Positions 7,794 through 55,694 of a DNA stretch of 64,000 nucleotides are shown one piece after another (position 1 is the stretch's first letter; each line of letters starts with the position of its first letter). Position numbers and translations under genes: made by a program. Source of the stretch: Salipiger bermudensis (GTDB taxonomy: Bacteria > Pseudomonadota > Alphaproteobacteria > Rhodobacterales > Rhodobacteraceae). The notes beneath the pieces were generated by a model that had not been told where the DNA came from, did not search any database, and was given only the letters and a program-made list of their open reading frames with translations. The stretch covers positions 620,001-684,000 of the forward strand of contig NZ_JAIUZY010000001.1 in NCBI RefSeq assembly GCF_020171625.1, written 5' to 3'.

Positions 7794-7990
7794 TCAGGCT
7801 GAGGCGGCCATTGCGGACGGCTCGTCCGATCGCGGCTCGGGATCGCGCAGCACGTACCCCCGGCCCCAGACCGTTTCGATGTAGGTCTCGTCGCCCGTCG
7901 CCTCGCTCAGCTTCTTGCGGAGCTTGCAGATGAACACATCGATGATCTTGAGTTCGGGCTCGTCCATGCCGCCATAGAGGTGGTTGAGAA
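7794..7990 (-). pseudogene. ctrA: 3' fragment of ctrA, cut off by the prophage at attL
   Basis: Read on the minus strand from the phage junction, the frame gives [20 protein letters not shown], then the KLRKKL recognition region, [12 protein letters not shown] and a stop at 7794. This is the C-terminal 63 residues of the OmpR-type DNA-binding domain of CtrA, including the recognition helix and wing. It has no start or promoter of its own. The matching 5' part is at 55140-55694. Joining the two at the shared TTCTCAA core restores [10 protein letters not shown] in frame and a total of 238 residues. Confidence 0.95.
7984..7990. other. attL core (TTGAGAA)
   Basis: The same 7 bases occur at 55168-55174. 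Bacterial ctrA sequence lies to the left of this copy and phage sequence to the right. Around the core the two junctions are similar but not identical: minus strand TTCTCAACCACCTCTAT here, TTCTCAAGCATCTATAT at the other end. Confidence 0.8.
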
Positions 7991-8010
7991 TAGCGTAGAA
8001 AACTACGCTA
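7991..8010. repeat. Perfect palindrome next to attL
   Basis: TAGCGTAG-AAAA-CTACGCTA starts at the first phage base after the core. A perfect 8-bp stem directly at the crossover suggests an integrase/excisionase site or a hairpin. It is absent from the attR side and so belongs to the phage P arm. Confidence 0.6.
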
Positions 8011-8031
8011 TAACAACGCTACTGCGCAAAA

Positions 8032-8040
8032 CGTTTCAAC
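8032..8040 (-). promoter_or_regulatory. Candidate integrase arm-type site (left)
   Basis: CGTTTCAAC, the reverse complement of the GTTGAAACG found at 55099-55107 on the other flank. A second TTGAAACG lies at 8068-8075 on the plus strand. Repeated short motifs flanking the core on both phage arms are typical of tyrosine-integrase arm sites. The assignment is inferred. Confidence 0.35.
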
Positions 8041-8101
8041 GGACAAAGCGAAAACGCATCATGAATCTTGAAACGCCCGACGGGACGACAAAAAAACCCG
8101 A

Positions 8102-8314
8102 TCAGCCCCTATCCGGGGTTCCAGCCGACCATCCGAACCGCACTTCTTCCGGGCGCCCTACCCGCCCGCACCTGGAACACCGGAGCCGGGCAAGCGCCAC
8201 TTCGGTCATGACCCAGCCGGTTCCGTCCCGATCAGAACGCTGCAGGTCTGCCATCAAGACGGTGCTGTCGCGCCCACAGGCGCAGGTCAGGAGGGCATAA
8301 TGGCCGCGGCGCAT
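8102..8314 (-). CDS. Small zinc-ribbon-like hypothetical protein
   Basis: 70 residues with two Cys pairs (CACGRD near residue 11 and CSRCGRVGRP near residue 46) arranged like a small zinc ribbon. The rest is Arg-rich. No upstream ribosome-binding site is obvious. Function unknown. It lies at the phage left end on the strand opposite to the kinase cargo. Confidence 0.45.
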   Translation of the reverse strand: MRRGHYALLTCACGRDSTVLMADLQRSDRDGTGWVMTEVALARLRCSRCGRVGRPEEVRFGWSAGTPDRG

Positions 8315-8321
8315 GGCGCTA

Positions 8322-8522
8322 CTATCGTGACTGCATCACAAGACGGAAATTCTGCGCCAGCCGCTTTTGCGCTGTTGCAGGCTCGATGCCGGCAGAGAGC
8401 GCCAGCGCCGTCGCCGCGTCGATTAAGCTGGCAAAGGCCGCGACGGCATCTCCTTCGCATTCACGCACTGTCCTACGAACAAGCTCGCATACCCGCTCAT
8501 CGTGACTATCCCCGATAGGCAT
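8322..8522 (-). CDS. Small hypothetical protein (66 aa)
   Basis: Acidic helical protein starting MPIGDSHDERVCELVRRTV. The ATG at 8522 follows a strong purine-rich ribosome-binding stretch (GGGGGGAAGAA), so it is preferred over the upstream in-frame ATG at 8549. It ends 7 bp before the zinc-ribbon gene and is probably co-transcribed with it. No family recognised. Confidence 0.5.
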   Translation of the reverse strand: MPIGDSHDERVCELVRRTVRECEGDAVAAFASLIDAATALALSAGIEPATAQKRLAQNFRLVMQSR

Positions 8523-8970
8523 TTCTTCCCCCCTTTTCCTTTCGACCATACCGTGTGGGCCGACGCACCCAGTGCAGCTGCCAGAACCAGAAAATCAGAT
8601 CTCGCACGCTCGGGCCTCATGTTTCTTGCTCGGCGACTTGCTTGGTGATCTCAGAGAGATCCGTTTCAACCTCCTCCAGAGATCGCCCCTCGACCAACCC
8701 CTTACATTGTCCCAGTCGTGCTCTCTCAGATATTGGCGTGCCAGGTTACCACAGAGCGCACCCGCAGCGAATTCTTACGTGGCGGAGCCACTCTTGAAGC
8801 TATCTCGCAACTGGAGGTTCGGCTCTTACAGGCTGCTGCGTGCCTTTTTCGCATCGCTTACGAGCAGGAAAACTCTACCTCTAACAACTATCGAGACTTC
8901 GCTCTACCTAGAGATGCGAATATGGACAAAATTGCCGCATCTTTTAGCGGTTCCTTGGCAGGGTGAACCG
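8523..8970. other. 448-bp gap before the kinase; no gene supported
   Basis: Open frames exist, including an N-terminal extension of the kinase from 8572, but they have no ribosome-binding site and no protein-like composition. The region has lower GC than the host. It probably holds the promoter of the kinase cargo, though no clear -35/-10 pair was singled out. Confidence 0.4.
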
Positions 8971-11394
8971 ATGTCGAAGATTGTGACGATGATCGAGAGC
9001 GCCTCGGTCATGCTGCTTGCGGTTTTGGCCGTGAGCATGATCTACAGCAAATTCTCCCGCCAGTACTGGACAAAGAGCGTTCTACTGGGATTGCTTTTTG
9101 CTTTCGTCGGCATCCTAGTGATGGAAAACTCGGTCGAGATTGTCGAGGGTATCCGGACCGATCCACGAGGCGCGGTGGTGGTCCTGTCTGCTGCATTCGG
9201 CGGGCCCTTAAGTGTCGCGATCACCGCCCCCTGTCTCGCGATAATGAGGTTGATCCAAGGCGGTATGGGCGCTGGTCCCGGTGCCATCTACATTTTAGGC
9301 GTCGGCCTCGCATCCGGGTTGGCGTGGGTCTGGTGGTTTCGCATCGCCAAGGCACGCCTCAGCATTCCGTATGTTGTGGTGCAGTCGGTGATCGCCGGGA
9401 CAGTGCCGGCGATAATACTGCTTTTTGTCAGCAAAGCCCCTTGGGAAGTTTTCTTCATCTCCAACGCCCTTAGCGCACCGACGAACTTCGCGGCGACGCT
9501 GATCATGGGGACGATGCTGGTGCGCGATCTGGACCGCGCCGACGCCATAAAGCTCGGCGAAGAAAAACAGGCTCAAATCAACGCGATATCCGAGCATGCC
9601 CCGGTGGTCCTATTCCAAATCGTTCGCGCCGCTGACGGAGCCCCGAGCTTCACCTATGTCTCACGCTCCGCCGAGTCCATTCTGGGTATCGCTCCAGGCG
9701 ATCTGCTACACGATTTCACTGCAATAAATCGCATCTCCGACACGCCTACCGCGGGCGAAATCAACTCGAAGCTCAACGCTTCAGAGGAGGAATTTACCCC
9801 TTGGAGCTTCGAGCTTCAGTGCCTGAGGCACACCGGCAGCGAAAAGTGGCTGCGCGTTCATTCCGGCATCCGCAAGGATCTCGATGGCCGAACAACTTGG
9901 GATGGATCCTTTATCGACATCACTGAGGAGAAGATTGCCGCAAAGCTGAAGGACGAGTTCATTTCGACTGTCAGCCACGAACTGCGGACACCACTGACGT
10001 CCATCCGCGGTGCCCTGCGCCTCGTCATCGGCAAAGGATCCTCGGGGCTTCCCGAAAAAGTTCTACACATGCTTAACATCGCCGATCGCAACTCCGAGCG
10101 GTTGGTTCTGCTGATCAACGACATTCTCGACATGCAAAAAATCCGAGCCGGGCAGATGCAGTTTTCGCTCAGCTTGCAAGACCTGCAGAGCCATGCCGAA
10201 AACGCGCTGGCCTCTTCCGAGAACTATGCGCCAGAGAAGGAGATCTCCTTCGTCCTAGATGATCGCGCCGCCGGCAGAAAAGTGAACATCGATCCTATCC
10301 GTTTCGATCAGGTCCTCGCAAACTTGCTGTCCAATGCAATAAAGTTCTCACCAAAAGGCGGAACCGTCACACTTTCTATCCTACAGCTTGCGGATAAGCT
10401 GCGGGTGTCGGTGAAAGACGAGGGCGTTGGGATTCGAGCAGAGTATGCAGACCAGATCTTCCAGCCGTTTAGTCAGTCGGAAACGTCATCAACCCGAAGC
10501 GTCGGCGGAACCGGACTCGGCCTCAGCATCAGCAAGGGGCTGATCGAAGCAATGGACGGGCATCTCAGCTTCGAGTCGGTTGAAGGTCACGGGGCAACGT
10601 TTCACATCGATCTGCCCGCGATAGAAGTGCCCGCTCACGCCGATCATAGTACGGCGGAACCAGGCGCGATAGGTCGGCGCCTTCTAATTTGCAGCGATGA
10701 CAAAGCTTTCACTCAGATGGTGAAGGAAGCGGCCCAACTTTGCGGACTGTTCCCGGACTCATCTGAGAATTTGGATGCAGCACTCAGCTTTGCCAAACAG
10801 GGAAACTATGCCGCCCTACTGGTCGACGGAGATACCATCGCCCCGGAAGCTGCATTGGAGAAAATCCGCCGAGACGATTGGGCACGCCATCTTCCGGTGA
10901 TTGTAGCTTCGCGAGAAGAGGGCGGAATGGTCGAGGGCGCGATCGCTATTCTCCCGAAAGAGGCAACCAAGACCGAGCTTCAAGAAGCTTTGAACGAGGT
11001 GCTGTCTTCCCGCCAAATTCAATCGCACGTCCTGTACGTGGAGGATGACGCATACTTGCACGAGATCTTCCAGCAGAGCGTCGGAGATAAAGTACGGCTG
11101 ACGGGCGCCCGAACACTCGCCGAAGCTCGAGCAATTATCGCGTATAACAAATTCGATTTGGTCCTGCTCGATCTGGAGCTACCAGACGGCCATGGTGCTC
11201 AGTTACTGCCGATCCTACCGCCTTCGACATCGGTCATCGTGTTCTCTGCTCACGATGTGGATACGCATATCAGCCAGCGCGCGAGTGCAGTCTTTACCAA
11301 ATCGCGAACAAGAGAGACGGACGTGGTCGAAGCGGTGCTGAACGTCCTCGACGCCTCAAATTCGCTTGGTTCGTCGAACGTCGACGTTCTCTAG
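8971..11394 (+). CDS. Membrane hybrid histidine kinase with 5TM-LYT sensor, PAS and two receiver domains
   Basis: 807 residues. Residues about 1-190 form several membrane helices resembling the 5TMR-LYT sensor (AAFGGPLSVAITAPCLAIMR). A PAS region follows at about 200-325. The HisKA H-box is FISTVSHELRTPLTS with phospho-acceptor His336. The N-box is LANLLSNAIKFSPKGG near 450 and the G-box is GGTGLGLSISKG near 512. Two receiver domains follow, a weaker one (D619 in LLVDGD) and a clear one (D734 in LLDLELPDG). The ATG at 8971 is chosen because the frame upstream is not protein-like. It is followed 26 bp later by a single receiver protein, its likely partner. It is carried inside a prophage that has split ctrA. 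Confidence 0.9.
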   Translation: MSKIVTMIESASVMLLAVLAVSMIYSKFSRQYWTKSVLLGLLFAFVGILVMENSVEIVEGIRTDPRGAVVVLSAAFGGPLSVAITAPCLAIMRLIQGGMGAGPGAIYILGVGLASGLAWVWWFRIAKARLSIPYVVVQSVIAGTVPAIILLFVSKAPWEVFFISNALSAPTNFAATLIMGTMLVRDLDRADAIKLGEEKQAQINAISEHAPVVLFQIVRAADGAPSFTYVSRSAESILGIAPGDLLHDFTAINRISDTPTAGEINSKLNASEEEFTPWSFELQCLRHTGSEKWLRVHSGIRKDLDGRTTWDGSFIDITEEKIAAKLKDEFISTVSHELRTPLTSIRGALRLVIGKGSSGLPEKVLHMLNIADRNSERLVLLINDILDMQKIRAGQMQFSLSLQDLQSHAENALASSENYAPEKEISFVLDDRAAGRKVNIDPIRFDQVLANLLSNAIKFSPKGGTVTLSILQLADKLRVSVKDEGVGIRAEYADQIFQPFSQSETSSTRSVGGTGLGLSISKGLIEAMDGHLSFESVEGHGATFHIDLPAIEVPAHADHSTAEPGAIGRRLLICSDDKAFTQMVKEAAQLCGLFPDSSENLDAALSFAKQGNYAALLVDGDTIAPEAALEKIRRDDWARHLPVIVASREEGGMVEGAIAILPKEATKTELQEALNEVLSSRQIQSHVLYVEDDAYLHEIFQQSVGDKVRLTGARTLAEARAIIAYNKFDLVLLDLELPDGHGAQLLPILPPSTSVIVFSAHDVDTHISQRASAVFTKSRTRETDVVEAVLNVLDASNSLGSSNVDVL

Positions 11395-11420
11395 ATCCCG
11401 TTAATGTTAGAGGCCTGATA

Positions 11421-11783
11421 ATGAAGATTCTGCATGTCGACGACGAAGCGGACATCCGGGAAATCGCCGAGATGGCGCTGTCTCTTGACCCCACGTTCGA
11501 AGTCGCATCCGCGAAAAGCGGAGCGGCCGCCCTTGAGAGTATCTCAGATGACGCTCCCGACGTCATACTGCTCGACGTAATGATGCCTGAAATGGATGGG
11601 CCGAGCCTTCTGAAGATCCTGCGCGCCCGCCAAGAAACTGCAGATATCCCGATCATCTTCATGACGGCCGCGGTTCAACATCAAACGGTCGACAATCTGA
11701 AGTCGATCGGCGCGATCGGGGTGATCGGAAAGCCGTTCGATCCGATCTCGCTGGCGGATGAGATAAAAGCACTGTTGCCATGA
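11421..11783 (+). CDS. Stand-alone CheY-like response regulator
   Basis: 120 residues, only a receiver domain. The acidic pocket is HVDDEAD, the phospho-acceptor is Asp52 in VILLDVMMPEMDG, the switch Thr is in FMTAAV, and the Lys is in VIGKPFDP. There is no output domain, so it must act through protein contacts or as a phosphate shuttle. It starts 26 bp after the hybrid kinase and is probably in the same transcript. Confidence 0.93.
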   Translation: MKILHVDDEADIREIAEMALSLDPTFEVASAKSGAAALESISDDAPDVILLDVMMPEMDGPSLLKILRARQETADIPIIFMTAAVQHQTVDNLKSIGAIGVIGKPFDPISLADEIKALLP

Positions 11784-12193
11784 CTGGGAAGCGGGCCTCA
11801 GCAGGGTTCCAGTACGGCCACCTCGAGAGATGATGGAAAGCGAAGCTAGTTCAGCGGCGCATTGAGCGCGCATCATCTGGTTCGACTCCGCCTAGGCCGT
11901 CGAACTGCTCGCTTGGTTGGCGAAGATTCTGAGATCCGTGGCTGAGGCCGACATGCAGTGACAAGCTACCGATGTCATGCAGTGGTTTTTTGTCGCCAAT
12001 GTCACCAGAACACCACCGCATCAACCTGTCTCCCATTTCAGGTGTATTGAGGGCTCCGCCTTTAACGCTCCGCGCAGTGCAGTCTTTGATGATCTTTAGG
12101 ACATCTCGTGTATCTTAGCAGAGCGTCGGATGGACCGAGAGATCGAGCTGTCTGGCGCAGGAAGGTACCTTCGGCAACATTCGGTATGCGCGA
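11784..12193. other. 410-bp gap between receiver and glycosidase-like genes; nothing recognised
   Basis: Short open frames on both strands show no ribosome-binding site or domain. Codon-like structure is absent. It probably contains the end of the two-component transcript and the start region of the next gene. Confidence 0.4.
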
Positions 12194-13213
12194 GTGACAA
12201 TGAGAACCCTCTCAAGACGCCACGTAGTTTCTGCCTTTGGCGCAGTGACCATGGTCGGATCGCCGAGCTGGTCTTTTCCGCCCTCGTCATCGCCTGTCCT
12301 TCGCGGCTTCAACCTAATTGAAAGTGAAGATGCTCCGTTCGGAAGTATGGAAGCCGAAACCAGTATCCATCGGTTGGCCGCGACCGGAGCGACTGCCGCT
12401 GCCATCGTGCCGTTTCTCTGGCAAGCCAACGCTTCGTCGGATGAGATCATCATGGGTAATGCTGTGCCGGAAGACAGGATACGCGCTGGGATCGCACAGG
12501 TCCAGGCTGCCGGGTTGAGCGCGGTTGTTAAACCGCACGTCTGGGTTCCGGATCGCTGGGCAGGGGCAATATTGGTCGAGGGCGAGGGCAAGGTGCGTTG
12601 GCACGATGCTTACCGTAAAATTCTTCTTGAGCTGGCAGGCATCGCCCAGAACGAGCAGGCCGAAGTTCTAGTCCTCGGCACCGAACTACGGGGAATGTCC
12701 GACGGCCCGCGATGGGCAGAGCTGATCAAAGAAGTCCGACGGTCCTTTTCCGGAAGATTGACATATGTCGCGCACGGCGCAGACGAAGCGGAGCGTGTGG
12801 CCTTCTGGCCTCTTCTCGATGCGGTTGCCGTTTCTCTCTACCCACCCCTTGGCGCCGACAATGCCCAAGAGAATTGGAGGCGCGCCATCGAGACAGAACT
12901 CGACAGGGTAGAGGCCGTCGCCCGAAATGTTGAGAAGCCAGTGTGGATCGCAGAAATTGGCATTCGATCTGCCGAAGGCGCTGCGGCTCGGCCATGGGAA
13001 AGTGCCGAGGAACGTGCTGCACAGCCCGACCTGCAGCTCCAGGCAGCGGTGCTCTCGCAGTGGCTGCACGCCCTTAAAGATCGAAAGATCGACAATGTCT
13101 GGATCTGGCGGTGGCTGACGGACCCGGAAGGCGGTGGGCAATACGATACAGACTTCACCGTTCAAAACAAACTTGCCGAAAGCCGTATTGGAGATTGGTG
13201 GCGAGAGTATTGA
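12194..13213 (+). CDS. Tat-exported TIM-barrel glycosidase-like protein (GH113-like)
   Basis: 339 residues. The N-terminus RTLSRRHVVSAFGAV is a twin-arginine signal. The fold reads as a TIM barrel of the GH113 type, with a strand ending VLVLGTELRGM (candidate acid/base Glu) and a later strand PVWIAEIGIRS (candidate nucleophile Glu). The family acts on mannans or related polysaccharides. The substrate here is unknown. A second ATG at 12200 is equally possible. It follows the kinase/receiver pair in the same direction, and base composition is lower in GC than the phage structural genes, so the three genes look like one acquired cargo block. Confidence 0.65.
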   Translation: MTMRTLSRRHVVSAFGAVTMVGSPSWSFPPSSSPVLRGFNLIESEDAPFGSMEAETSIHRLAATGATAAAIVPFLWQANASSDEIIMGNAVPEDRIRAGIAQVQAAGLSAVVKPHVWVPDRWAGAILVEGEGKVRWHDAYRKILLELAGIAQNEQAEVLVLGTELRGMSDGPRWAELIKEVRRSFSGRLTYVAHGADEAERVAFWPLLDAVAVSLYPPLGADNAQENWRRAIETELDRVEAVARNVEKPVWIAEIGIRSAEGAAARPWESAEERAAQPDLQLQAAVLSQWLHALKDRKIDNVWIWRWLTDPEGGGQYDTDFTVQNKLAESRIGDWWREY

Positions 13214-13398
13214 GCTGCAGAACGATCCAATTCGCGAGGCCCATGCGCGACTGATCGGCTTTCGGGAGGCACCGCCCGTTTAATCGGGCACCAGAAAATT
13301 TGCCTGTTCTCCTGATCGCAGGTCGGTGCGCACGGCATAGAATGCCGGGACGCACGACGCCCGCCCGACCACCACCAGCACCGCGCCGGTGGATCTCG

Positions 13399-13599
13399 TC
13401 ACCAGCTGCAGTACCGCCGGCCGTATTCGTTCTCGACCCGGATCTGCTCCACGTCCTCACGGTCGGTCTTGAGCATCTGGGGCGCTGTCACCGCGGCGTC
13501 GAAGCGCTTCTCACCCGGCACGACATCGCAGAAATCCCCTGGCACAGCGCAGGCGCTAAGGCTCAGAAATACCGCGCAACAGCTCATCGTCCGTTTCAT
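13399..13599 (-). CDS. Outer-membrane spanin lipoprotein (Rz1-like)
   Basis: 66 residues. The signal peptide ends in a lipobox (LSLSAC), so the mature protein is a short lipoprotein of about 49 residues. The start is nested within the end of the inner-membrane spanin frame, the classical Rz/Rz1 overlap. A GGGAGATCTCC ribosome-binding region precedes the ATG. Together the two link inner and outer membrane and disrupt the latter at lysis. Confidence 0.75.
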   Translation of the reverse strand: MKRTMSCCAVFLSLSACAVPGDFCDVVPGEKRFDAAVTAPQMLKTDREDVEQIRVENEYGRRYCSW

Positions 13600-13750
13600 T
13601 GGAGATCTCCCTTTTGAGGTTGAGCATGTCCCGGCACGTGTCGAGCCGGGCGGCGGCGTCCTGCGCCCGGTCGAGCTGGAACCACAGCACGAGGCACAGC
13701 GCCATGAGGGCGGCGCAGAGCGCGATCAGGAGCTTGCTCAGCATCGTCAC
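13556..13750 (-). CDS. Inner-membrane spanin (Rz-like)
   Basis: 64 residues with one N-terminal membrane helix (LLIALCAALMALCLVLWFQL) followed by a charged periplasmic helix. It is short for an i-spanin. Its start overlaps the DUF5658 gene stop by 4 bases and its 3' end overlaps the Rz1-like start by 44 bases. The call rests on this arrangement and topology rather than sequence family. Confidence 0.65.
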   Translation of the reverse strand: MTMLSKLLIALCAALMALCLVLWFQLDRAQDAAARLDTCRDMLNLKREISNETDDELLRGISEP

Positions 13751-14010
13751 ACCTGCCGCAAGTTGTTGATGACGACGGCGGCATAGACCGCGTTGAGGAG
13801 CCAGATCAGCGGCTCAGCGCCGGCCCACCAGATCAGGGCGGCGGCAATCGCGGCCACGAGGATCTTCGGGGCCCACCAGAACCGGCCGAACCAGTCCATG
13901 AGCTTGGCAACGACAGGGTTCCGCTCGTAGCCGCCCGCCTCGAGCACGCGGATGGTGCTGAGCACGTCGCAGACCTGCAGCAGCGCGAGGATGGTCAGGG
14001 AGAGGGTCAT
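13747..14010 (-). CDS. DUF5658-like small membrane protein in the lysis cassette
   Basis: 87 residues starting MTLSLTILALLQVCDVLSTI. It has three hydrophobic segments, with the GGYERNPVVAKLM motif between the first two. It lies between the lysozyme and the spanins with 4-base overlaps on both sides, so a holin or anti-holin role is plausible. The ATG at 14010 is used because it overlaps the lysozyme stop. Confidence 0.65.
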   Translation of the reverse strand: MTLSLTILALLQVCDVLSTIRVLEAGGYERNPVVAKLMDWFGRFWWAPKILVAAIAAALIWWAGAEPLIWLLNAVYAAVVINNLRQV

Positions 14011-14804
14011 GCCGCGCCCACCATGCACAGGCGGTGCTCATCGGTACGACGGTTGACCAGTCCGCGCAGGACGCGCCCGCCGGCTTTGTTCCACCACGTC
14101 AACGCCTCGCATCCCCCGGCAACGTCACCCGCGTTGAGGCGGCGCGTGGCAGTGCTCTTGCCGGCAGCCGAGACGCCGACGTTGTAGGCGAGGCTCGAAT
14201 AGGCGGCATCCCTGGTCGGCGGCAGGCGCCGCGCTCGGGTGTCAGCCGTGAAGTGGCGGTGCAGCCCGGCGCGGTATTCGAGGATCCGCCGGCCGAGCAT
14301 CGCGGCGCACTGCTCGGCAGTGTACTGGTCGCCGGGCCGCACGCCCTGCGTCTCGCCGTAGCAGACCGTCCAGACCCCCACCGGATCGCGGTATGCCTTG
14401 GTCTCGAGCCCCTCCCATTTCGAGACCAGTGGGATCGCCACCTCGAGAAAGGCCTCCTCCGAGGTCCGCGCCTGCGAGACAGCCGGCGCGACGGGCGCCG
14501 GAGCATGGGCGCGCTGCCCGGTCATCAGGGCCCCGCCCGCGACCAGCACCAGCGCCAGGAGGCCGATCATCGGCGCGCTGCGCACCTTCGTTCGGTCGAT
14601 GCCCTGGTCCTTCAGCCGCCCGATCATCCCGTAGATCCACGCGGCGAAGGCGGCTACCCACCAGAACCGCGGGTTGGTGTCGATCCCGGCCACGACCCAG
14701 ATCAGGTCAGGCAGGATCAGAAACAGCCCGGTGAGGTAGAAACCCCACATGCTGTGCGATCGGCGCGCGACGGCGCCGGCATTGTCAATCAGTCGCATGG
14801 TCAT
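14007..14804 (-). CDS. Holin-like membrane domain fused to GH24 lysozyme (endolysin)
   Basis: 265 residues. Residues 1-100 hold three hydrophobic segments around FYLTGLFLILPDLIWVVAG, NPRFWWVAAFAAWIYGMIG and SAPMIGLLALVLVAGG, as in phage holins. Residues about 118-265 are a T4/P21-type muramidase with the catalytic Glu-8aa-Asp-5aa-Thr pattern (SKWEGLETKAYRDPVGVWTV). The fused form means the enzyme is membrane-anchored, like signal-anchor-release endolysins but with multiple helices. An SD (GGAGAA) lies just before ATGACCATG. Confidence 0.85.
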   Translation of the reverse strand: MTMRLIDNAGAVARRSHSMWGFYLTGLFLILPDLIWVVAGIDTNPRFWWVAAFAAWIYGMIGRLKDQGIDRTKVRSAPMIGLLALVLVAGGALMTGQRAHAPAPVAPAVSQARTSEEAFLEVAIPLVSKWEGLETKAYRDPVGVWTVCYGETQGVRPGDQYTAEQCAAMLGRRILEYRAGLHRHFTADTRARRLPPTRDAAYSSLAYNVGVSAAGKSTATRRLNAGDVAGGCEALTWWNKAGGRVLRGLVNRRTDEHRLCMVGAA

Positions 14805-14813
14805 TTCTCCATG

Positions 14814-14839
14814 AAAAAAGCCCGGCGCGATGGCCGGGC
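14814..14839 (-). terminator. Hairpin terminator upstream of the lysis cassette
   Basis: Minus strand GCCCGGC/GCCGGGC stem (14820-14839) followed by six T residues. It lies just before the lysozyme start in the leftward operon, so it would be read through under antitermination or reduce lysis gene expression. Confidence 0.7.
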
Positions 14840-15653: not shown

Positions 15654-15677
15654 CGTGTGGTGCGATGGTCGAGCGTA

Positions 15678-47984: not shown

Positions 47985-47989
47985 GCCGC

Positions 47990-48065: not shown

Positions 48066-48069
48066 CGCC

Positions 48070-48699: not shown

Positions 48700-49427
48700 T
48701 GAGCCCACATCTGACGTTCTATGGTGACGCCAGCAGTCGCGATAAAGATTACATGGTCGCTGGCGGCTTCGCGGTGGCGGGGAACCGGATTGCAGAGATC
48801 GAGGACCGTATCGCGACCTTGCGCGACGACGCTGGAATTCGATCAGAATTTCACTGGAGCGCGTATCGTGGCGGTGAAAAGAGAGCCGCGTACGAGAAGC
48901 TCGTGGACTACGGCTTTGACCTCGTTAAAAAGCGTTATGCGGCACTACACATAATCATCTCACCGTTTGGGGGCTACAACCACAAGGCCCGACCAGGCGA
49001 GAACCGCGACACCAGCATCAACAGGATGTACTATCAACTTTGCCTGCACCGTCTCGCGCGATTTTATGGAGATAAACGCACCCTCCATGTAAGGCTCGAT
49101 GCTGGAAACGACTCACGGGATATCTGCGCCATGCGGAACGAGCTCTGCGCGGCAGCCTACAAGACACACGCAACTCGTCCGAACTGCTTTCGCAGCATCG
49201 AGCCCGTGAACTCAGAGAACCATAGCCTCATCCAATTGGCTGACGTGATCGTCGGTGGGATTGCGGCAATACAGAATAGCGTGAAACACACCTCCCCGAA
49301 GGGCGACCTGGCTCGCTATGTGCTGCGAAAGTCCGGTCGGCACTCGTGGGGCACCCCTACCCCCAAAGAGGCAAGATTCTTGACCGTTTGGCACTTTAGG
49401 GGGAGGTCAGGTCCCTCGCAGCCCTAG
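48699..49427 (+). CDS. DUF3800 protein co-expressed with the repressor
   Basis: 242 residues. The first strand carries FYGDASS, a later one HVRLDAGNDSRD, and the end NHSLIQLADVIVGGIAAIQN, the acidic residues of the RNase H-like DUF3800 family. Its ATG overlaps the repressor stop (TAATG), so it is translated from the repressor message and expressed in the lysogen. DUF3800 genes occur in defence neighbourhoods. An exclusion or immunity function is inferred. Confidence 0.82.
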   Translation: MSPHLTFYGDASSRDKDYMVAGGFAVAGNRIAEIEDRIATLRDDAGIRSEFHWSAYRGGEKRAAYEKLVDYGFDLVKKRYAALHIIISPFGGYNHKARPGENRDTSINRMYYQLCLHRLARFYGDKRTLHVRLDAGNDSRDICAMRNELCAAAYKTHATRPNCFRSIEPVNSENHSLIQLADVIVGGIAAIQNSVKHTSPKGDLARYVLRKSGRHSWGTPTPKEARFLTVWHFRGRSGPSQP

Positions 49428-49564
49428 CTGTAGGGCACGGCTGGTCTAGCCAGCGTATTCGGGCTGCGAAGGCCTAATAAGTACATAGGCCTAAATCCAA
49501 CATAAATCAATGAGTCGCTAGCATCGAGGCTGCCTGGTTGCAGGTAGGTATATTGATGCCCCAC
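49428..49564. other. Intergenic stretch after DUF3800; no gene
   Basis: AT-richer sequence with AGGCCTA occurring twice (49470 and 49488 region). No coding frame with a ribosome-binding site was seen. Confidence 0.35.
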
Positions 49565-49585
49565 CCCCGCTCCGGCGGGGTTTTT
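49565..49585 (+). terminator. Terminator of the repressor-DUF3800 operon
   Basis: CCCCGC-TCCG-GCGGGG stem followed by five T residues. Confidence 0.75.
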
Positions 49586-49590
49586 CATGT

Positions 49591-49620
49591 GCGCCGGAAG
49601 CTGGACTCAGCCCCCGGCGC
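49591..49620 (+). repeat. Stem-loop with GCTGGACTC loop, copy 2
   Basis: GCGCCGG/CCGGCGC arms enclose a loop with AGCTGGACTCAGCC. It ends 6 bases before the ATG of the next gene. Same loop core as the element at 24536-24566. Confidence 0.5.
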
Positions 49621-49626
49621 TACCCC

Positions 49627-49917
49627 ATGATCGAAAGCGCGACACAACCGAAAATGGAGAATTCTGTGAGCATTAAAGGCGTTACGTTCAACATCAAATA
49701 CGACGACACCTACACTGAGCGGTACAACAATCTCAGAGCGGTGTTCGAGCGCCACAACCAAGTGGAAGATCGCACCACATCCTGCGTGTTCCTCGATACG
49801 CCGAAGTCAGTTGATGAGGTTCACACTGCACTATACGGCGCGCTAGACTACACCAAAGACAAAGCTATCGTCTTCGAAACCTACCGCCACAACATGAAGA
49901 CGTTCGGGCCCAAATGA
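49627..49917 (+). CDS. Small accessory protein (96 aa)
   Basis: Starts MIESATQPKMENSVSIKGVT, then YDDTYTERYNNLRAVFERHN. A second ATG at 49654 follows at MENSV. Its codon use is less GC-rich than the early operon. It is preceded by the stem-loop element, as is the accessory gene at 24596. No family recognised. Confidence 0.55.
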   Translation: MIESATQPKMENSVSIKGVTFNIKYDDTYTERYNNLRAVFERHNQVEDRTTSCVFLDTPKSVDEVHTALYGALDYTKDKAIVFETYRHNMKTFGPK

Positions 49918-50017
49918 GATAGTCCGGCTTAACGTCCACAGGGACATGGAAGACCCGATAGCTGATCCAGAACGCGATCTTGAGGCGTCGGACGCGCCAC
50001 TCCTCGCTGTCGAACAT
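49865..50017 (-). CDS. Small possible protein convergent with the accessory gene
   Basis: 50 residues starting MFDSEEWRVRRLKIAFWISY. A strong AGGAGGTCTGAA site precedes the ATG. It overlaps the plus-strand gene end by 53 bases, which lowers confidence. Basic C-terminus. Confidence 0.4.
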   Translation of the reverse strand: MFDSEEWRVRRLKIAFWISYRVFHVPVDVKPDYLIWARTSSCCGGRFRRR

Positions 50018-50123
50018 TTCAGACCTCCTGAATGGCTCCGCTCCGGCGGGGCCTCTTTCATGCCGCCAGCACCGCGCTGACACCGGCACTGTAGCACGGC
50101 GCCTCAGTCGGCGTAAGGATCGT

Positions 50124-50175
50124 GGGGATTAATATCCCCTTTCTTCTTGACTGGGGATATTTGTCCCCTTACTCT
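50124..50175 (+). promoter_or_regulatory. OL-like early promoter with two repressor operators
   Basis: GGGGATTAATATCCCC (50124-50139) and GGGGATATTTGTCCCC (50153-50168) match the operators at the repressor gene. TTGACT (50147-50152) and TACTCT (50170-50175) are 17 bp apart with the second operator filling the spacer, so bound repressor would block RNA polymerase. This should drive the rightward recombination/integration operon. Confidence 0.75.
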
Positions 50176-50238
50176 CTTCCTATAAACCGCCGCCGAAGAC
50201 GCTACCGGCTGATCGCGGACAGAGATGGGAGAGACACA

Positions 50239-50571
50239 ATGCGTCACGATCCGAATATCAGCCGCCACGAGGGGAAGCGCCCGGTGAGCTTCACGCCCTG
50301 TGGCTGCTCGCGCTGCGGCGACTACCCGCTCGATATCGAGGACATGGCCCCGGCGGCGATGTTCAAGGATGGCTGGGTCGCCCGGCTGGTCGAGGACAAC
50401 GGCGGCACCGTCTGCCTGACCTGCGCCCATGACGCCAAGGCTTGCGACTGGTGCGCAGGCCCGGTCAGCACCGAGGAATTCACCGCGTCGAATGCCTATG
50501 CCGAGCGCCGTTTTTGCTGCGCCGAGTGCATGGATGCATGGACGACCGCAAGCGAGCCGGTGAGGTCGTGA
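50239..50571 (+). CDS. Zinc-finger-like early protein
   Basis: 110 residues starting MRHDPNISRHEGKRPVSFTP. Eight or more Cys in pairs: CGCSRCGDYP, CLTCAHDAKACDWC, CCAECMDAW. It is the first gene after the early promoter. The ATG at 50239 is chosen because the upstream frame includes the operators. Function unknown; a metal-binding regulator or host-takeover factor is possible. Confidence 0.65.
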   Translation: MRHDPNISRHEGKRPVSFTPCGCSRCGDYPLDIEDMAPAAMFKDGWVARLVEDNGGTVCLTCAHDAKACDWCAGPVSTEEFTASNAYAERRFCCAECMDAWTTASEPVRS

Positions 50572-50690
50572 TGCGTGACCTCATGCCCCTCCTTGATTGG
50601 CTCCTGTTCGCCGCCGCCTGCGTCTTCGCTGGCTGGCTCTTCCATGCAATCCACACCGCCGCTCAGGCGATCAAGATGGGGGCAATCTGA
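50571..50690 (+). CDS. Small one-helix membrane protein (39 aa)
   Basis: MRDLMPLLDWLLFAAACVFA then GWLFHAIHTAAQAIKMGAI. The ATG overlaps the previous stop and the stop overlaps the next start, so it is fixed in the operon. Confidence 0.6.
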   Translation: MRDLMPLLDWLLFAAACVFAGWLFHAIHTAAQAIKMGAI

Positions 50691-50872
50691 TGCCCGTATC
50701 CCTCTCCCAAGTCATCGACGGCGCCGAGAACGGCAACGACCGTGCCGAGGCCGAGCTGTGGGCGCGCTTCCGCGCCGTCCGACCGCTCGACGCCCTGATG
50801 ATCACCGACCACGACCGCCAGACCGAAACCGCAATCGCATGGGCCAAGGCCCAGATGGAGGACGCAGCATGA
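50690..50872 (+). CDS. Small early protein (60 aa)
   Basis: Starts MPVSLSQVIDGAENGNDRAE. Helical and acidic. Overlaps the ERF gene by 4 bases. Function unknown. Confidence 0.6.
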   Translation: MPVSLSQVIDGAENGNDRAEAELWARFRAVRPLDALMITDHDRQTETAIAWAKAQMEDAA

Positions 50873-51702
50873 ACGCAGTGACGCAACACCAGCAGGCGGG
50901 AAACAACGTCTCCGCGCTGCCCGCCGACCCGATGGTTTCGATGATCGAGCGGCTTGTCCTGAACCCGGACGCTGACCTCGACAAGCTGGAACGAATGCTG
51001 GCGCTCAAGCGGGACCACGAGCGGGACAACGCCCGTATCTCGTTCGCCCGCGCCCTGTCCGCAGCCCGCGCCGAAATTCCGCCGATCATGAAGGACGCAA
51101 CGGTCGACTTCACGAGCAACAAGGGGCGCACCCACTACCGGCACGAGACGCTGGCCGGCATCGCCAAGGTGATCGACCCGATCCTCTCCCTGCACGGGCT
51201 GTCCTACCGGTTCCGCACGGATCAGAGCCAAGGCGGGGTGAAAGTTACCTGTGTCATCGCCCACGCCGACGGTCACAGCGAGGAAACGTCGCTTCAGTGC
51301 GCCCCTGATGGCTCGGGATCGAAGAACCCCTTCCAGGCGGTCGGCTCTGCGGTCACCTACTTGCAGCGCTACACCCTCAAGGCCGCCCTCGGCCTCTCCG
51401 CCGAGGAGGACGACGACGCTCAAGGCGCCGCGCCGCGCGCCGGCCAGAACCGCGAGCAGCCGCGCAACGAAAAGCCGCCGACCTCGCAGGCGGAGCAGAC
51501 CGCAGACAGCATGATCGACAGCATCCGCCGCCACGGCGCGGACAATGTGGAAGCCGACGAGCGGTTCCGCCACGAGTTCTCGCGGCTGCGCTCCACCGAT
51601 GCCGAGCAAGCCGCCCGCGTCGACATCGAGATCGCCAACTGGCGCGAGGCCAACAAGCCCCGCACCGGCGAGATCATCGACCCGAACGAAATTCCCTACT
51701 GA
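50869..51702 (+). CDS. ERF-family single-strand annealing recombinase
   Basis: 277 residues. The ERF core reads ARISFARALSAARAEIPPIM, then DFTSNKGRTHYRHETLAGIA, then NPFQAVGSAVTYLQRYTLKA and ALGLSAEEDDD. A disordered linker and a short conserved end (GEIIDPNEIPY) follow. It promotes annealing of homologous strands, perhaps for genome circularisation. The ATG overlaps the preceding gene. Confidence 0.92.
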   Translation: MNAVTQHQQAGNNVSALPADPMVSMIERLVLNPDADLDKLERMLALKRDHERDNARISFARALSAARAEIPPIMKDATVDFTSNKGRTHYRHETLAGIAKVIDPILSLHGLSYRFRTDQSQGGVKVTCVIAHADGHSEETSLQCAPDGSGSKNPFQAVGSAVTYLQRYTLKAALGLSAEEDDDAQGAAPRAGQNREQPRNEKPPTSQAEQTADSMIDSIRRHGADNVEADERFRHEFSRLRSTDAEQAARVDIEIANWREANKPRTGEIIDPNEIPY

Positions 51703-51713
51703 GGATCCAGACC

Positions 51714-52406
51714 ATGAACGACATGACCCCCGCCGCCGGGCACAACAACCCGCCTGAACCTCTGGACGACGCCCTCGCACCCTATGGCGACTTCATCACC
51801 GAGGCCGAGGGTTGGCTTGATGGCGAACCCGTCACCACCGAAGCGCAGATGAACGCCGTTGACGATCTGGCGAAGCATATCAAGGCCGCAGAGAAGGCAG
51901 TGAAGACGGCAGAGGAAAGCGCCGCCAAGCCGCTCTATGACGCATGGAAGGCCGAGAAGGCCCGCTATGCGCCGACGCTGGACGACCTCGGGCGGCTCAA
52001 GAAAGGGCTCGCCTCCATCGTCAACGAATTCAAGCGCAAGCTCGCTGCCGAAAAGGCGGAGGCAGAGCACAAGGCGCGTGCGGAAGCTGAAAAGGCCCGT
52101 CGCGAGGCGGAGGCCAAGGCCAGAGCCGCGCAGGAAGCCGATATCGAGGCGCAGCGCGAAGCAGCCGCAGCGCAGGCAGAGGCTGAGCGGATGCAGGCCG
52201 AATCCGCGAAGGCCAGCAAGGGGCAAGTGAAGGGCCTTCGCACCGTCACCCGCTACGCGATCGATGATCACCGGGCAGCACTGCATGATATCGCCACGAA
52301 TGACCGGGGCGCGATGACCGCCTTCATCGAGGAGTACGTGCGCCGCAACCACAAGGCCCGCGCCATCAATGGCGTGCGCGTGTGGCAGGAAAAAGAGGCG
52401 TTCTGA
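51714..52406 (+). CDS. Coiled-coil early protein next to ERF
   Basis: 230 residues. Residues about 90-165 form a long Ala/Glu/Lys-rich coiled coil (EKARREAEAKARAAQEADIE). The C-terminal domain reads VTRYAIDDHRAALHDIATND. Proteins of this layout often accompany ERF or RecT in phage. They may assist recombination or inhibit host nucleases. Not assigned to a named family. Confidence 0.65.
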   Translation: MNDMTPAAGHNNPPEPLDDALAPYGDFITEAEGWLDGEPVTTEAQMNAVDDLAKHIKAAEKAVKTAEESAAKPLYDAWKAEKARYAPTLDDLGRLKKGLASIVNEFKRKLAAEKAEAEHKARAEAEKARREAEAKARAAQEADIEAQREAAAAQAEAERMQAESAKASKGQVKGLRTVTRYAIDDHRAALHDIATNDRGAMTAFIEEYVRRNHKARAINGVRVWQEKEAF

Positions 52407-52579
52407 TGACCCCCGCCACCATCTTCGAGACCTATCAAGAGCGCGTCTCTGCGGACAGGTCTCCGCAAGGGCCGGATCGTGACGCTATCGCCGAGGATCT
52501 GGCAGCCGAGAACGGCCTGACGAAAGCCGAGGTCGATGAGATCATCACCGGCTACCTGATCGGTGCGGGGGCGGGCTGA
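52406..52579 (+). CDS. Small early protein (57 aa)
   Basis: Starts MTPATIFETYQERVSADRSP and ends ITGYLIGAGAG. Its ATG overlaps the previous stop and its stop overlaps the next start. Helical; function unknown. Confidence 0.6.
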   Translation: MTPATIFETYQERVSADRSPQGPDRDAIAEDLAAENGLTKAEVDEIITGYLIGAGAG

Positions 52580-53031
52580 TGCCGACGAAGGTTCTCCGCG
52601 ATCCGGGGCACGTCGATGCGCTGGCTATCCTCCTAAAGGCTCGCAAGCTGCCGATCACGGTGACATGGGCGCAGGGCACTTCCCGCAGCTCATCGCAGAA
52701 CCGGCTGGCGCAGCGGTGGTTCACCGATATCGCCTTGCAGCTTGGCGACCAGACCCACGAGGAGGTGCGCGCCGAATGCAAGCTCACCATCGGCGTGCCG
52801 ATCCTCAGGGCCGAGAATGAGGCTTTCCGCCTCTCCTATGACCGGACGATGAAGCACCTGCCTTACGAGGAAAAGCTCGCAGCGGTGAAAGCCTTCGATC
52901 TTCCGGTGACGCGCCTGATGACCGTCAAGCAGATGACCGACTTCATGGATCAGATGCAGCGGCACTGGATCATGATGGGCGTGCGGCTGACCGATCCCGA
53001 GGCGCTCAAGTACGAGCAGGAATTCACATGA
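52579..53031 (+). CDS. NinB-like recombination accessory protein
   Basis: 150 residues. RSSSQNRLAQRWFTDIALQL and MKHLPYEEKLAAVKAFDLPV, then TVKQMTDFMDQMQRHWIMMG resemble phage NinB/Orf-type proteins. Lambda Orf (NinB) helps load recombinases on single-stranded DNA. The similarity is partial and the call tentative. Confidence 0.5.
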   Translation: MPTKVLRDPGHVDALAILLKARKLPITVTWAQGTSRSSSQNRLAQRWFTDIALQLGDQTHEEVRAECKLTIGVPILRAENEAFRLSYDRTMKHLPYEEKLAAVKAFDLPVTRLMTVKQMTDFMDQMQRHWIMMGVRLTDPEALKYEQEFT

Positions 53032-53429
53032 CCCTCGCCCGCCGATCCCTGCTCAAGGCCAAGGCCCGCATCAAGCCCGTGTCGGACAAGCGCCGCAAGC
53101 ACCGGGCCAGCGCCTCGGGTCAGGCTGACCTCGAATACATGCGCCGCGTCCGGGCTCTGCCCTGCTGCGCCTGCGGCAAGCACGGCCCGAGCGATGCGCA
53201 CCACTGCCGCGACCTGCCCGACTTCAACGAGCGCGGCCTGTACGACCGCCTCCCCGGCGCCGGGTCCAAGTCCGGCGACCGCGACACCATCCCGCTCTGC
53301 GGTGGCCCCCACGGCTGTCACAGCCTGTTTCACGGCGACCGCGCTGAATTCCACCGGCTGCACGGCAAGGATTACGGCTTCATCGCCCCTACCCGCGCCA
53401 CCCTGTCCAACATGGAGATTGATTTCTGA
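53028..53429 (+). CDS. DUF968/Ref-like HNH nuclease
   Basis: 133 residues. A basic N-terminus is followed by CCACGKHGPSDAHHCRDLPD and DTIPLCGGPHGCHSLFHGDR, giving the zinc Cys/His ligands and HNH histidines. The lambda and P1 relatives (NinG-like, Ref) act in recombination. It overlaps its neighbours by 4 and 1 bases. Confidence 0.8.
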   Translation: MTLARRSLLKAKARIKPVSDKRRKHRASASGQADLEYMRRVRALPCCACGKHGPSDAHHCRDLPDFNERGLYDRLPGAGSKSGDRDTIPLCGGPHGCHSLFHGDRAEFHRLHGKDYGFIAPTRATLSNMEIDF

Positions 53430-53596
53430 TGCAGACCCCCGTTCTCACGCACTCCGCCACGCTGGCGAATATGACAGACCGCGAAATCCGCATCGGCCTG
53501 GACTTGGCCGGCGGTCGCACCAGCCTGCCCGACACCCTTCCCCCGATGGGCCCCGAGGTGGCCGCTTGGGCTATGGAGCGGAGGGCGGAAGGATGA
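53429..53596 (+). CDS. Small early protein (55 aa)
   Basis: Starts MQTPVLTHSATLANMTDREI and ends WAMERRAEG. ATG and stop overlap the neighbouring genes. Function unknown. Confidence 0.55.
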   Translation: MQTPVLTHSATLANMTDREIRIGLDLAGGRTSLPDTLPPMGPEVAAWAMERRAEG

Positions 53597-53724
53597 CCGC
53601 GCACTCCTTCCCGCCTCTCACCCCTCCCGACGAAACGCAGGAACCCGGCTCCCGGATCTGGGCGGAGTACCACGCCAACGAGGGTCTGCCGCCGGCTTCT
53701 GGTTCGCTCTCGGCGTTCTCGTGA
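53593..53724 (+). CDS. Small early protein (43 aa)
   Basis: Starts MTAHSFPPLTPPDETQEPGS. The ATG overlaps the preceding stop as ATGA. Pro-rich and probably unstructured. Confidence 0.5.
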   Translation: MTAHSFPPLTPPDETQEPGSRIWAEYHANEGLPPASGSLSAFS

Positions 53725-53822
53725 TCCTCGGAGTCGGCGTCGTCGGCACCGTCTGGGCGCTGTCCATGAGCGTCACCGAGTGGGGTCCGGCGCTGATCAT
53801 GTCTGCGGGGTGGAGCGGGTGA
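53721..53822 (+). CDS. Possible small membrane peptide
   Basis: From a GTG that overlaps the preceding stop: a hydrophobic stretch VILGVGVVGTVWALSMSV and a short tail. The open frame extends upstream with more hydrophobic residues (FWFALGVL), so the true start may be earlier. Confidence 0.35.
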   Translation: MILGVGVVGTVWALSMSVTEWGPALIMSAGWSG

Positions 53823-53928
53823 CACAGCAGCTTCCCAAATGGACCAACAAAGGCTGCCTGATGCCCATGTCAGCGCCCCAGAGATGGGGCGTTGCGATGG
53901 ACACCAGACCGAGCGCGGAGACTCTCGC

Positions 53929-54099
53929 ATGACCACACACGCCGCACATCCACTCAAAGGAGCAGAACTTCGCAAGGCGGTAGCTGAGTGGGCTGGCCTT
54001 GGTTGTGCAGTCAAGATCGGCTCGGATGGCACGATCGAAGTGATCCCGCCCACGCGCGATAGCGCCGAGCCAGATCTCGTGAACTGGAGCCGCAAATGA
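53929..54099 (+). CDS. Small protein before the integrase, possible excisionase
   Basis: 56 residues starting MTTHAAHPLKGAELRKAVAE, with AVKIGSDGTIEVIPPTRDS. It overlaps the integrase start as ATGA. Short proteins in this position are often directionality factors, but no clear winged helix is visible, so the role is inferred from position. Confidence 0.5.
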   Translation: MTTHAAHPLKGAELRKAVAEWAGLGCAVKIGSDGTIEVIPPTRDSAEPDLVNWSRK

Positions 54100-55103
54100 A
54101 ACGTAACCTTCCCGCCTACGTCTATGCCCGGGGAAAGCGCGGCTATCTCTACTTCATCCGCTCCGGCGTCTGCCAGCGCATCCACAGCGAGCCGGGAACA
54201 CCGGAATTTGCGGCCGATTACGCGCTGTTGATGAGGGGCCGACCTGTCACGCCCAAGCGCAACATTGGCAAGCTCATCGAGCTTTTCATGTGCTCTCCGA
54301 AATGGGCCAGCTATGCCCACAACACGCGGCGAGGATATGAACGTCACCTCACCTACCTGCGCGACACGGCGGGGAATATCGATCCGGCCAAGCTGCGCAC
54401 CGTCCACGTCTACGAGATGCGGGACGCGCTGGCCGATAAGCCGACCGACGCCAACCGGAAGATCGACACGCTTGTAGCGCTGCTGAACTACGGGATTCAG
54501 ATCGGATGGTTCGACCGAAACCCGGCGCACGGCGTCGAGCGCCTGAAGGCGACGGGACGGAAGCGAAAGCCGTGGCCGGTCGATCTAATCGAAGCATTCC
54601 GGGCCGAGGCGGATGGCCGAACGCTGCTCATTTTTGAAATGCTGCTCGGCACCGGCCAGCGCATCAATGACGTGCTGTCTCTTCGCTGGTCCGACCTAGA
54701 CGGCGACGGCTTCACCCTCACGCAAGGCAAGACCAAGACCGAACTCTACATCCCTCTGACAGACCGCCTGCGCTCCGTGCTGGCGTCTCAGAAGCGGCGC
54801 GGCCTGTTCATCATCTGTCACGAGGACGGCACCAAGATCAGCTACCAGCTTGCCCACAAGGACGTGATGGCTGTGCGGAAGAAGATTGGCGCGGATGAGT
54901 ACGACATTCACGCGCTGCGCTACGCCGCGGCGTCCGAGATCGCCGCGATCCCCGGCATGACCCGCGACCACATCCAAGCAATCACCGGCCACGCCGATGC
55001 CGCCATGATCCGCCGCTATGCCGGTGCTGCCGTACAGAAGATCCGGGCAACAGAGGCGCAGAAGGCTCGCACGGACAGAACGAATACGAAACGAGAACGT
55101 TGA
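54096..55103 (+). CDS. int: Tyrosine integrase targeting ctrA
   Basis: 335 residues. SAM-like core-binding domain at about 60-160 (WASYAHNTRRGYERHLTYLR). Catalytic residues visible: Arg189 (GTGQRINDVLSLRW), His272 and Arg275 (HALRYAAAS), His299 (TGHADAAM) and the nucleophile Tyr308 (IRRYAG). A Lys is expected in the QGKTKTE hairpin. It ends 64 bp before the attR core. The last codons overlap the repeated TGAAACG motifs. Confidence 0.96.
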   Translation: MKRNLPAYVYARGKRGYLYFIRSGVCQRIHSEPGTPEFAADYALLMRGRPVTPKRNIGKLIELFMCSPKWASYAHNTRRGYERHLTYLRDTAGNIDPAKLRTVHVYEMRDALADKPTDANRKIDTLVALLNYGIQIGWFDRNPAHGVERLKATGRKRKPWPVDLIEAFRAEADGRTLLIFEMLLGTGQRINDVLSLRWSDLDGDGFTLTQGKTKTELYIPLTDRLRSVLASQKRRGLFIICHEDGTKISYQLAHKDVMAVRKKIGADEYDIHALRYAAASEIAAIPGMTRDHIQAITGHADAAMIRRYAGAAVQKIRATEAQKARTDRTNTKRER

Positions 55104-55119
55104 AACGGTTTCTGAAACG
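55099..55119 (+). promoter_or_regulatory. Candidate integrase arm-type sites (right)
   Basis: TGAAACG occurs at 55101 and 55113 with a 12-bp period. The first is part of GTTGAAACG, which is found inverted at 8032-8040 on the other arm. Confidence 0.35.
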
Positions 55120-55139
55120 CTGAGACGCACATAATGTTT

Positions 55140-55694
55140 TCAGCACCTTACAGACCGATATAGATGCTTGAGAAACATCTCCTTGGTGAGGGTGGTGCCC
55201 TTGCGCAGCGAGAGCAGCTCGAGCATCTGGTACTCCTTGCCGGTGAGATGCACCGACTTGCCGTCAACCTCGACGGTCTTGGCGTCGAGATTGACCGAGA
55301 TCTTCCCGGTGCGGATCACCGACTGCGAATGCCCCTTCGAGCGGCGAATGATGGCATGGATCCGCGCCACCAGTTCGTCACGGTGGAACGGCTTGGTGAG
55401 GTAATCGTCGGCGCCGAAGCCGAACCCCTTGATCTTGCTCTCGGTATCGTCGGCCCCCGACAGGATCAGGATCGGCGTGCTGATCCGCGCCATGCGCAGC
55501 TGTCGCAGCACCTCGTGCCCATTGATGTCGGGCAGATTGAGATCGAGCAGGATCAGGTCGTAATCATAGAGCTTGGCCAGATCGATCCCCTCTTCTCCGA
55601 GATCGGTGGCGTAGACGTTCAGATTGGCATGGGTCAGCATCAGCTCGATGCTTTTCGAGGTGGTCGGATCATCTTCCACAAGGAGGATTCGCAT
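55140..55694 (-). pseudogene. ctrA: 5' fragment of ctrA, cut by the prophage at attR
   Basis: 184 codons. Residues 1-175 are CtrA: acidic pocket VEDD, phospho-acceptor Asp51 in [10 protein letters not shown], Lys in YLTKPF, and the first part of the DNA-binding domain ([20 protein letters not shown], then [11 protein letters not shown]). After the core it reads KHLYRSVRC from phage sequence and stops. The recognition helix and wing are missing. The fragment keeps its native promoter region and may still make a receiver protein that dimerises but cannot bind DNA normally. Confidence 0.95.
55168..55174. other. attR core (TTGAGAA)
   Basis: Identical to 7984-7990. Phage sequence is to the left and ctrA to the right. 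The phage side mimics ctrA for several codons (KHLY for NHLY) before diverging to a stop. Confidence 0.8.

Follow-up and report, generated by a model that had tools for sequence, protein, structure and literature searches.

Prophages that disrupt a host gene are already known, the comK phage of Listeria being one example of the switch type. They have been discussed as switches in print (e.g. PMC6597384), and switch-type prophages such as the hlb-converting phages of S. aureus insert exactly within a functional host gene that excision can restore. In this study we have analysed a window of 64,000 nt from Salipiger bermudensis (GCF_020171625.1, NZ_JAIUZY010000001.1:620,001-684,000; part of contig 1 in a 4.74-Mb genome, here G000), where a prophage inserted in the same exact manner splits ctrA, the gene of the regulator that governs flagella and gene transfer agents (GTAs) in Rhodobacterales. 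All coordinates below are those of the window. Unlike in the switch-type systems, the target here is a global two-component regulator, the host is an environmental alphaproteobacterium and excision has been carried out in silico. The element may also be compared with the dusA integrases, a family with one conserved protein-coding target across many hosts, which however use the 5' end of another gene rather than the interior of ctrA (PMC4482086). A further comparison is with phages whose life cycle is tied to CtrA, namely Jorvik (PMC10589892) and the lytic-deferment phages (PMC9437464); these need or read CtrA, whereas the ctrA prophages would destroy it on integration. Our results make it highly probable that site-specific integration through a shared ctrA cassette abolishes CtrA in the lysogens, and that it does so recurrently.

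One phage of this group has already been published. The nearest phage in INPHARED is Paracoccus phage vB_PkoS_Pkon1 (MK291442), whose integrase is 55% identical over 99% of the query and whose record carries the annotation 'attachment site in OmpR-family transcriptional regulator gene'. This mitomycin-C-inducible phage, reported in 2019, disrupts an OmpR-family regulator at the attB GTTTCTCAA(G/C)CAT, and the name CtrA is absent from the main text of that paper (PMC6536676). Part of the Pkon1 attB, GTTTCTCAAGCAT, is found at the N-side junction of the window, and its C variant, GTTTCTCAACCAT, lies within the intact ctrA of genome G404, in frame for the codons M-F-L-N-H. Because its attB matches the ctrA site, Pkon1 very probably splits ctrA as well. 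The two elements are alike in their related integrases, matching attB and disruption of an OmpR-family regulator gene; they differ in that, of 18 proteins of the window prophage, only the integrase, the head morphogenesis protein (38%) and the tape measure protein (33%) match Pkon1. A first-pass annotation, made from the letters of the window alone, had called ctrA a new kind of target for a phage. The site is indeed real and recurrent, but this wording is too strong given the published Pkon1 site. For another prophage, vB_PpaP_PD15 of P. pantotrophus J46, the same paper (PMC6536676) gives a 'putative ompR regulator' as the site; it resembles our element as a tyrosine-recombinase prophage at such a gene and differs in being listed as a podovirus, and its link to ctrA is a lead, by description.

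The anatomy of the junctions carries the case for the loss of CtrA. From its start at 55694 on the minus strand, ctrA reads as far as codon 175 (...KEMFL), the last before the core and phage DNA, and the phage side then contributes nine codons, K-H-L-Y-R-S-V-R-C, and a stop. The 3' part runs N-H-L-Y-G-G-M to the natural stop (7990-7794). The core is a 7-bp repeat, the longest word common to the two 100-base junction stretches compared, and in silico deletion of the insert with one repeat (47,184 bp) leaves an unbroken frame of 238 aa. Residues 1 to 227-238 of this joined protein align at 93-95% identity with the uninterrupted CtrA of 15 among 20 members of the genus, and the joined frame is not a product of chance because it matches one uninterrupted frame in each of them. 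The receiver part, with a match to 4qpj_C, the solved receiver of CtrA (E 7e-52), keeps its phospho-acceptor Asp51 in the 5' part, while the lost 3' part, judged by homology with OmpR/PhoB regulators, holds the recognition helix and the wing. The integration is not of the gene-restoring (tRNA) type, as the phage provides no replacement for the end of ctrA. A whole-genome search found no second ctrA, the best by E-value of 37 other matches being 36% identical. These results bear out the first-pass annotation where it proposed that the halves of ctrA flank a prophage of about 47 kb, that a 7-bp core joins them in frame, that the phage adds KHLY and then RSVRC with a stop without restoring the gene, and that the DNA-binding domain loses its recognition helix; the second intact ctrA that would have spoken against it was not found. 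A temperate tailed phage would thus insert through its tyrosine integrase at the codons M-F-L-N-H and end CtrA after residue 175, ahead of the recognition helix, with the remainder stranded 47 kb away, so that no working CtrA would be left. From this anatomy, the loss of CtrA in the lysogen is near certain.

The same arrangement recurs in other genomes. A scan of the GTDB species collection gave close relatives of the integrase (77-96% identical) at four distinct loci, in S. bermudensis DP6N14-6 (G401), S. bermudensis HTCC2601 (G092), S. thiooxidans DSM 10146 (G415) and Pseudooceanicola marinus LMG 23705 (G003). In all four, as in the window, the integrase is followed by a ctrA 5' part cut at the same M-F-L-N-H codons; the matching 3' part is present in each genome, and each has a single CtrA N-terminal match at E<=1e-40. 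DP6N14-6 and HTCC2601 each have both halves on a single contig, separated by about 40 and 50 kb respectively; in DSM 10146 and LMG 23705, whose prophages are visible in part only (contig ends), the halves are on different contigs. The phage-side extension stops after 4-9 codons in three of these relatives and is unrelated in the fourth. In a sample of 20 Salipiger-genus members, ctrA is intact in 15, split by this element in 4 and frameshifted in one (G402, which lacks such an integrase), and the same M-F-L-N-H residues are encoded in every intact copy. A family-wide search of 394 genomes gave integrase matches in 30, 28 of them distant, and identities of 36-49% in those 28 stand against 55-96% within the ctrA group. 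The distant integrases are not beside ctrA: among 41 loci tested (L024-L053, L084-L092, L109, L124), which did not include the G203 C45 match, CtrA was found at 4 only (window, G092, G401, G415), one further 26% match being an unrelated receiver, and absence is less sure at the several loci shortened by contig ends. The family surveys hold about one genome per genus and so undercount, as do the counts of one family CtrA survey, which are among the matches listed. The integrase also found one locus in IMG/VR, apparently the S. thiooxidans contig. In genome G356, the ends of contigs L126 and L127 overlap exactly over 50 bases that include the ctrA attachment site; a mixture of occupied and empty sites might account for this, or it might be chance.

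What these prophages have in common is mainly the integrase and its attachment arms. Of the 45,831 interior bases of the window prophage, G401 has matches to 4,528 and G092 to 1,365. Searches with tblastn at 1e-5 for its large terminase subunit (TerL), portal, head and tape-measure proteins gave nothing in G401, in G092 or in the available parts of G415 and G003. Matches in G401 exist for the tail-tip protein and for a minor tail protein, those of the repressor are in G401 (55%) and G415 (62%), and the portal and head-closure proteins of G092 belong to other PHROGs families. The two prophages that could be compared in full, G401 and G092, are therefore mostly unrelated to the window prophage beyond the integrase-attachment cassette. 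The integrase is common to all the ctrA prophages, and 35-79 bases at the opposite attachment arm are also similar, which is what a single int-attP cassette would give in a phage genome that is circular. The integrase with its flanking arms would thus be a ctrA-specific cassette carried by otherwise largely unrelated Salipiger prophages; the same integrase splits ctrA in a Pseudooceanicola, with Pkon1 very probably doing likewise, and CtrA loss would be a recurrent consequence of lysogeny by this phage group. The first-pass annotation had looked for support in other prophages at this site in related genomes, and the integrase and ctrA searches showed the site to be shared by four, with two full interiors that largely differ.

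The age of the break can be judged from the stranded 3' part. Over the 54 codons compared, the window and G401 differ by 8 synonymous and 2 nonsynonymous changes (one-sided binomial p 2e-4), the window and G092 by 10 and 3 (p 6e-5), and G401 and G092 by 11 and 1 (p 8e-7), the ratio of nonsynonymous to synonymous change (pN/pS) being 0.03-0.09 across these three pairs, which are not independent; G402 was left out of the counts for its frameshift. The same part gives higher values, 0.13-0.16, in pairs with G415, in part through the ungapped comparison of the variable C-terminal tail, and the ctrA 5' part gives 0.03-0.05 among Salipiger genomes. In all three sister species the stranded half evolves under strong purifying selection, unlike a long-dead fragment. 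It follows that ctrA was intact during most of the time since they diverged and that the insertions are recent or often reversed. In a tree of the 20 genus members, the window, G401 and G092 form one clade, all of it occupied, and G415 stands elsewhere at a weakly supported position. The host and integrase trees were also compared as possible proof of independent integrations and gave none, as, of three topologies submitted to approximately unbiased (AU) tests, two were rejected with the host alignment and none with the integrase alignment.

Several observations weigh against recurrent destruction of CtrA by a ctrA-specific cassette. The integrase distances are of the same order as the host distances and the host tree is compatible with the integrase alignment, so that cassette and host may have diverged together; occupation of the three sister species could partly be an old integration with a replaced interior. 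In pairs with G003, the 3'-part pN/pS rises to 0.29-0.39, to which an ungapped comparison that includes the variable C-terminal tail adds changes. In the P. marinus genome itself, transposase and TRAP-transporter genes, and no phage genes, lie within 4 kb on the insert side of the 3' part (L105, C8:1-7500), and the contig of the 5' part ends about 480 bases past the integrase; this insert may be rearranged or decayed rather than a whole, working prophage. Specificity within the integrase group is not absolute, because a second, 78% identical integrase in G415 (C18:116999-118000, in L107) sits at the start of a different, rlmJ-like gene, where the core resembles that at ctrA. This second integrase has the look of a target shift. 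Finally, the receiver that is kept, with its Asp51, could act on the phosphorelay.

The consequences for the lysogen may be sought in relatives. Mutants of relatives lose flagellar gene expression and motility (PMC12363192, PMC4046655), and CtrA controls the GTA genes of R. capsulatus and, to a lesser degree, those of D. shibae (PMC4046655). The window host carries a GTA-like cluster with a TIM-barrel tail gene, in which 8 of the 9 open reading frames (ORFs) scanned match tail, protease, portal, terminase or similar families, and it has five flagellin-domain matches and, like all 20 genus members, a ChpT-family gene. Because mutants of relatives lose these programmes and the host carries the GTA-like, flagellin and ChpT genes, the CtrA-driven programmes present in this host are expected to be off in the lysogen. 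By analogy with those mutants, we infer a CtrA-null phenotype with no flagella and with reduced or no GTA, and ctrA prophages probably switch off the swimming and gene-transfer programmes of host cells.

What purpose, if any, such an integration serves may be read in several ways. It is close to an even chance, though slightly below it, that ctrA is simply a convenient landing site, offering conserved codons in a dispensable gene, and that CtrA loss is a by-product which is tolerated without having been selected for. In line with this, ctrA has proved essential in none of the Rhodobacterales examined (PMC4046655, PMC3692519), the site residues are the same in the 15 intact genus members, and the G415 integrase at another gene suggests that specificity can shift without regard to CtrA function. 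The gene is also broken in other ways: it is apparently frameshifted in G402 (L106), G221 (L128) and G026 (C371; an incomplete genome), where sequencing error is possible, and in G358 (L129, L130) it is interrupted by an insertion sequence (IS)-like element, so labelled from a reading of the sequence. On the other hand, several phages use a site in the middle of the gene of a global regulator and leave the gene unrestored, and the known CtrA-dependent phages make neutrality less likely.

In a second reading, plausible but in our view rather unlikely, the removal of CtrA would silence the GTA and CtrA-dependent prophages, take away flagella or further infection routes that depend on CtrA, and so shield the lysogen against lysis and superinfection to a greater extent than repressor immunity does. 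Among six knockouts of R. capsulatus, only that of ctrA withstood phage Jorvik consistently, and it could be infected again once ctrA was supplied on a plasmid (PMC10589892); in phosphorelay mutants of P. inhibens, the strongest repression includes the terminus region with a 35.6-kb prophage (PMC12363192); and CtrA sites are present in phages that use pili and flagella (PMC9437464). The GTA-like cluster and flagellin-domain genes of the window host would be suitable targets. However, the rival phages named infect other genera, and GTA expression in P. inhibens is almost absent anyway (PMC12363192). No CtrA-binding site of the form TTAA-N7-TTAA occurs in the window, which is uninformative because 0.03 are expected by chance at its base composition. 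In its widest and more doubtful form, we speculate that a ctrA-specific int-att cassette circulates among unrelated phages of Salipiger, Pseudooceanicola and Paracoccus, and is kept because the destruction of CtrA silences CtrA-dependent competitors (GTA and other prophages) and closes infection routes, which would amount to superinfection exclusion by integration site, undone by excision.

A regulated switch, or active lysogeny, in which conditional excision restores CtrA without cell death and is followed by re-integration, appears quite unlikely. Exact excision would rebuild a whole ctrA in silico, the empty site being an exact in-frame gene; the stranded half is under purifying selection; and switch-type prophages that disrupt genes are in print, as cited above. 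Yet the complete-looking set of lytic genes points to phage production as the usual outcome of excision, and the conservation of the stranded half fits reversibility and recent insertion equally well. Excision itself is presumed in this strain. Very improbable is an ancient and permanent loss of ctrA in the clade of the window, G401 and G092, followed by prophage turnover. All three sampled members are occupied and the integrase distances resemble the host distances, but the 1-3 nonsynonymous against 8-11 synonymous changes are unlike those of a dead fragment, the interiors are mostly unrelated and the ChpT-family gene is retained. An assembly artefact joining phage to ctrA, which the first-pass annotation had itself raised, is rejected here as having next to no chance, because the integrase-ctrA junction of the window repeats in four other assemblies and both halves lie on a single contig in three of the five (window, G401, G092).

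Site-specific integration that abolishes CtrA recurrently is thus the explanation we prefer. ctrA as a prophage integration site is not named in the open-access literature searched, supplements lying outside its scope. Within that literature, CtrA as the target, its use by largely unrelated phages and a stranded gene still under selection seem to be new, as does the splitting of ctrA by the same integrase in the two genera seen, or three if Pkon1, by inference, is included. If the lysogens are CtrA-null, motility, GTA-driven gene transfer and phage susceptibility would vary between strains for a cause that is invisible to gene-content surveys, and excision would offer a ready on/off experiment for CtrA. 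The recurrence also raises a testable question, whether integration sites are chosen by phages to disarm rival mobile elements.

Table 1. Features of the split ctrA locus and its prophage (window coordinates).
Feature	Position	Strand	Remarks
ctrA 5' part	55140..55694	-	184 aa; receiver with Asp51, part of DNA-binding domain, nine junction/phage residues and stop
ctrA 3' part	7794..7990	-	recognition helix and wing (by homology); no listed ORF >=80 aa
Attachment core at ctrA 3' part	7984..7990		TTCTCAA in ctrA direction (TTGAGAA on +)
Attachment core at ctrA 5' part	55168..55174		TTCTCAA in ctrA direction (TTGAGAA on +)
Prophage	7991..55174		47,184 bp including one core
Tyrosine integrase	54096..55103	+	335 aa; PF00589 E 1.7e-19; phrog_1 E 3e-38
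ERF single-strand annealing protein	50575..51702	+	PF04404 E 2.8e-23
DUF3800 protein adjoining repressor	48699..49427	+	PADLOC candidate-defence model PDC-M04A, E 1e-19
CI-like repressor, S24 peptidase domain	47893..48699	+	family searches
Terminase large subunit (TerL)	39864..41327	-	PHROGs
Portal protein	38488..39867	-	PHROGs
Virion structural / major head protein	35816..36874	-	phrog_771 E 2.5e-78; phrog_264 E 1.9e-8
Head morphogenesis protein	33532..34602	-	PHROGs
Tail tape measure protein	25957..28209	-	PHROGs
Central tail fibre J-like (tail-tip) protein	16471..24138	-	2555 aa; family searches
Phage lysozyme	14007..14804	-	PF00959 E 4.9e-37
Cargo: glycoside hydrolase family 113 (GH113)	12194..13213	+	PF22612 E 1e-36
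Cargo: single-domain response regulator	11421..11783	+	PF00072 E 4e-26
Cargo: hybrid sensor histidine kinase	8971..11394	+	5TMR, PAS, HisKA, HATPase and receiver domains
Host gene upstream of ctrA	55820..56170	-	ORF conserved in relatives; putatively sciP-like (DUF1153)

The insert looks like a complete temperate tailed phage, with an integrase beside one att site, terminal direct repeats and genes for repressor, packaging, head, tail and lysis (Table 1), together with a head-closure gene; its GC content is 62.8%, against 67.3% in the flanks. Cargo-like genes occupy the stretch from the lysozyme to the prophage end opposite the integrase. Among them, close to the att site (8971-11783), are the hybrid kinase and the single-domain response regulator; the prophage carries one response regulator and by inserting removes another. 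Conceivably, this pair might take the place of CtrA signalling. The cargo kinase has no match at 1e-5 in the available parts of the other ctrA prophages (G401, G092, G415, G003), and no phage record covers 80% of its length. The genes adjoining the att site differ among the prophages, encoding TPR and Na/Ca-exchanger proteins in G401, a SASA-type esterase domain protein in G092 and a prokaryotic STING-domain protein in G415. The last (L104:16285-17538) is possibly part of a defence system and has no PADLOC match. In the window prophage, the cargo also includes the GH113 glycoside hydrolase (12194-13213).

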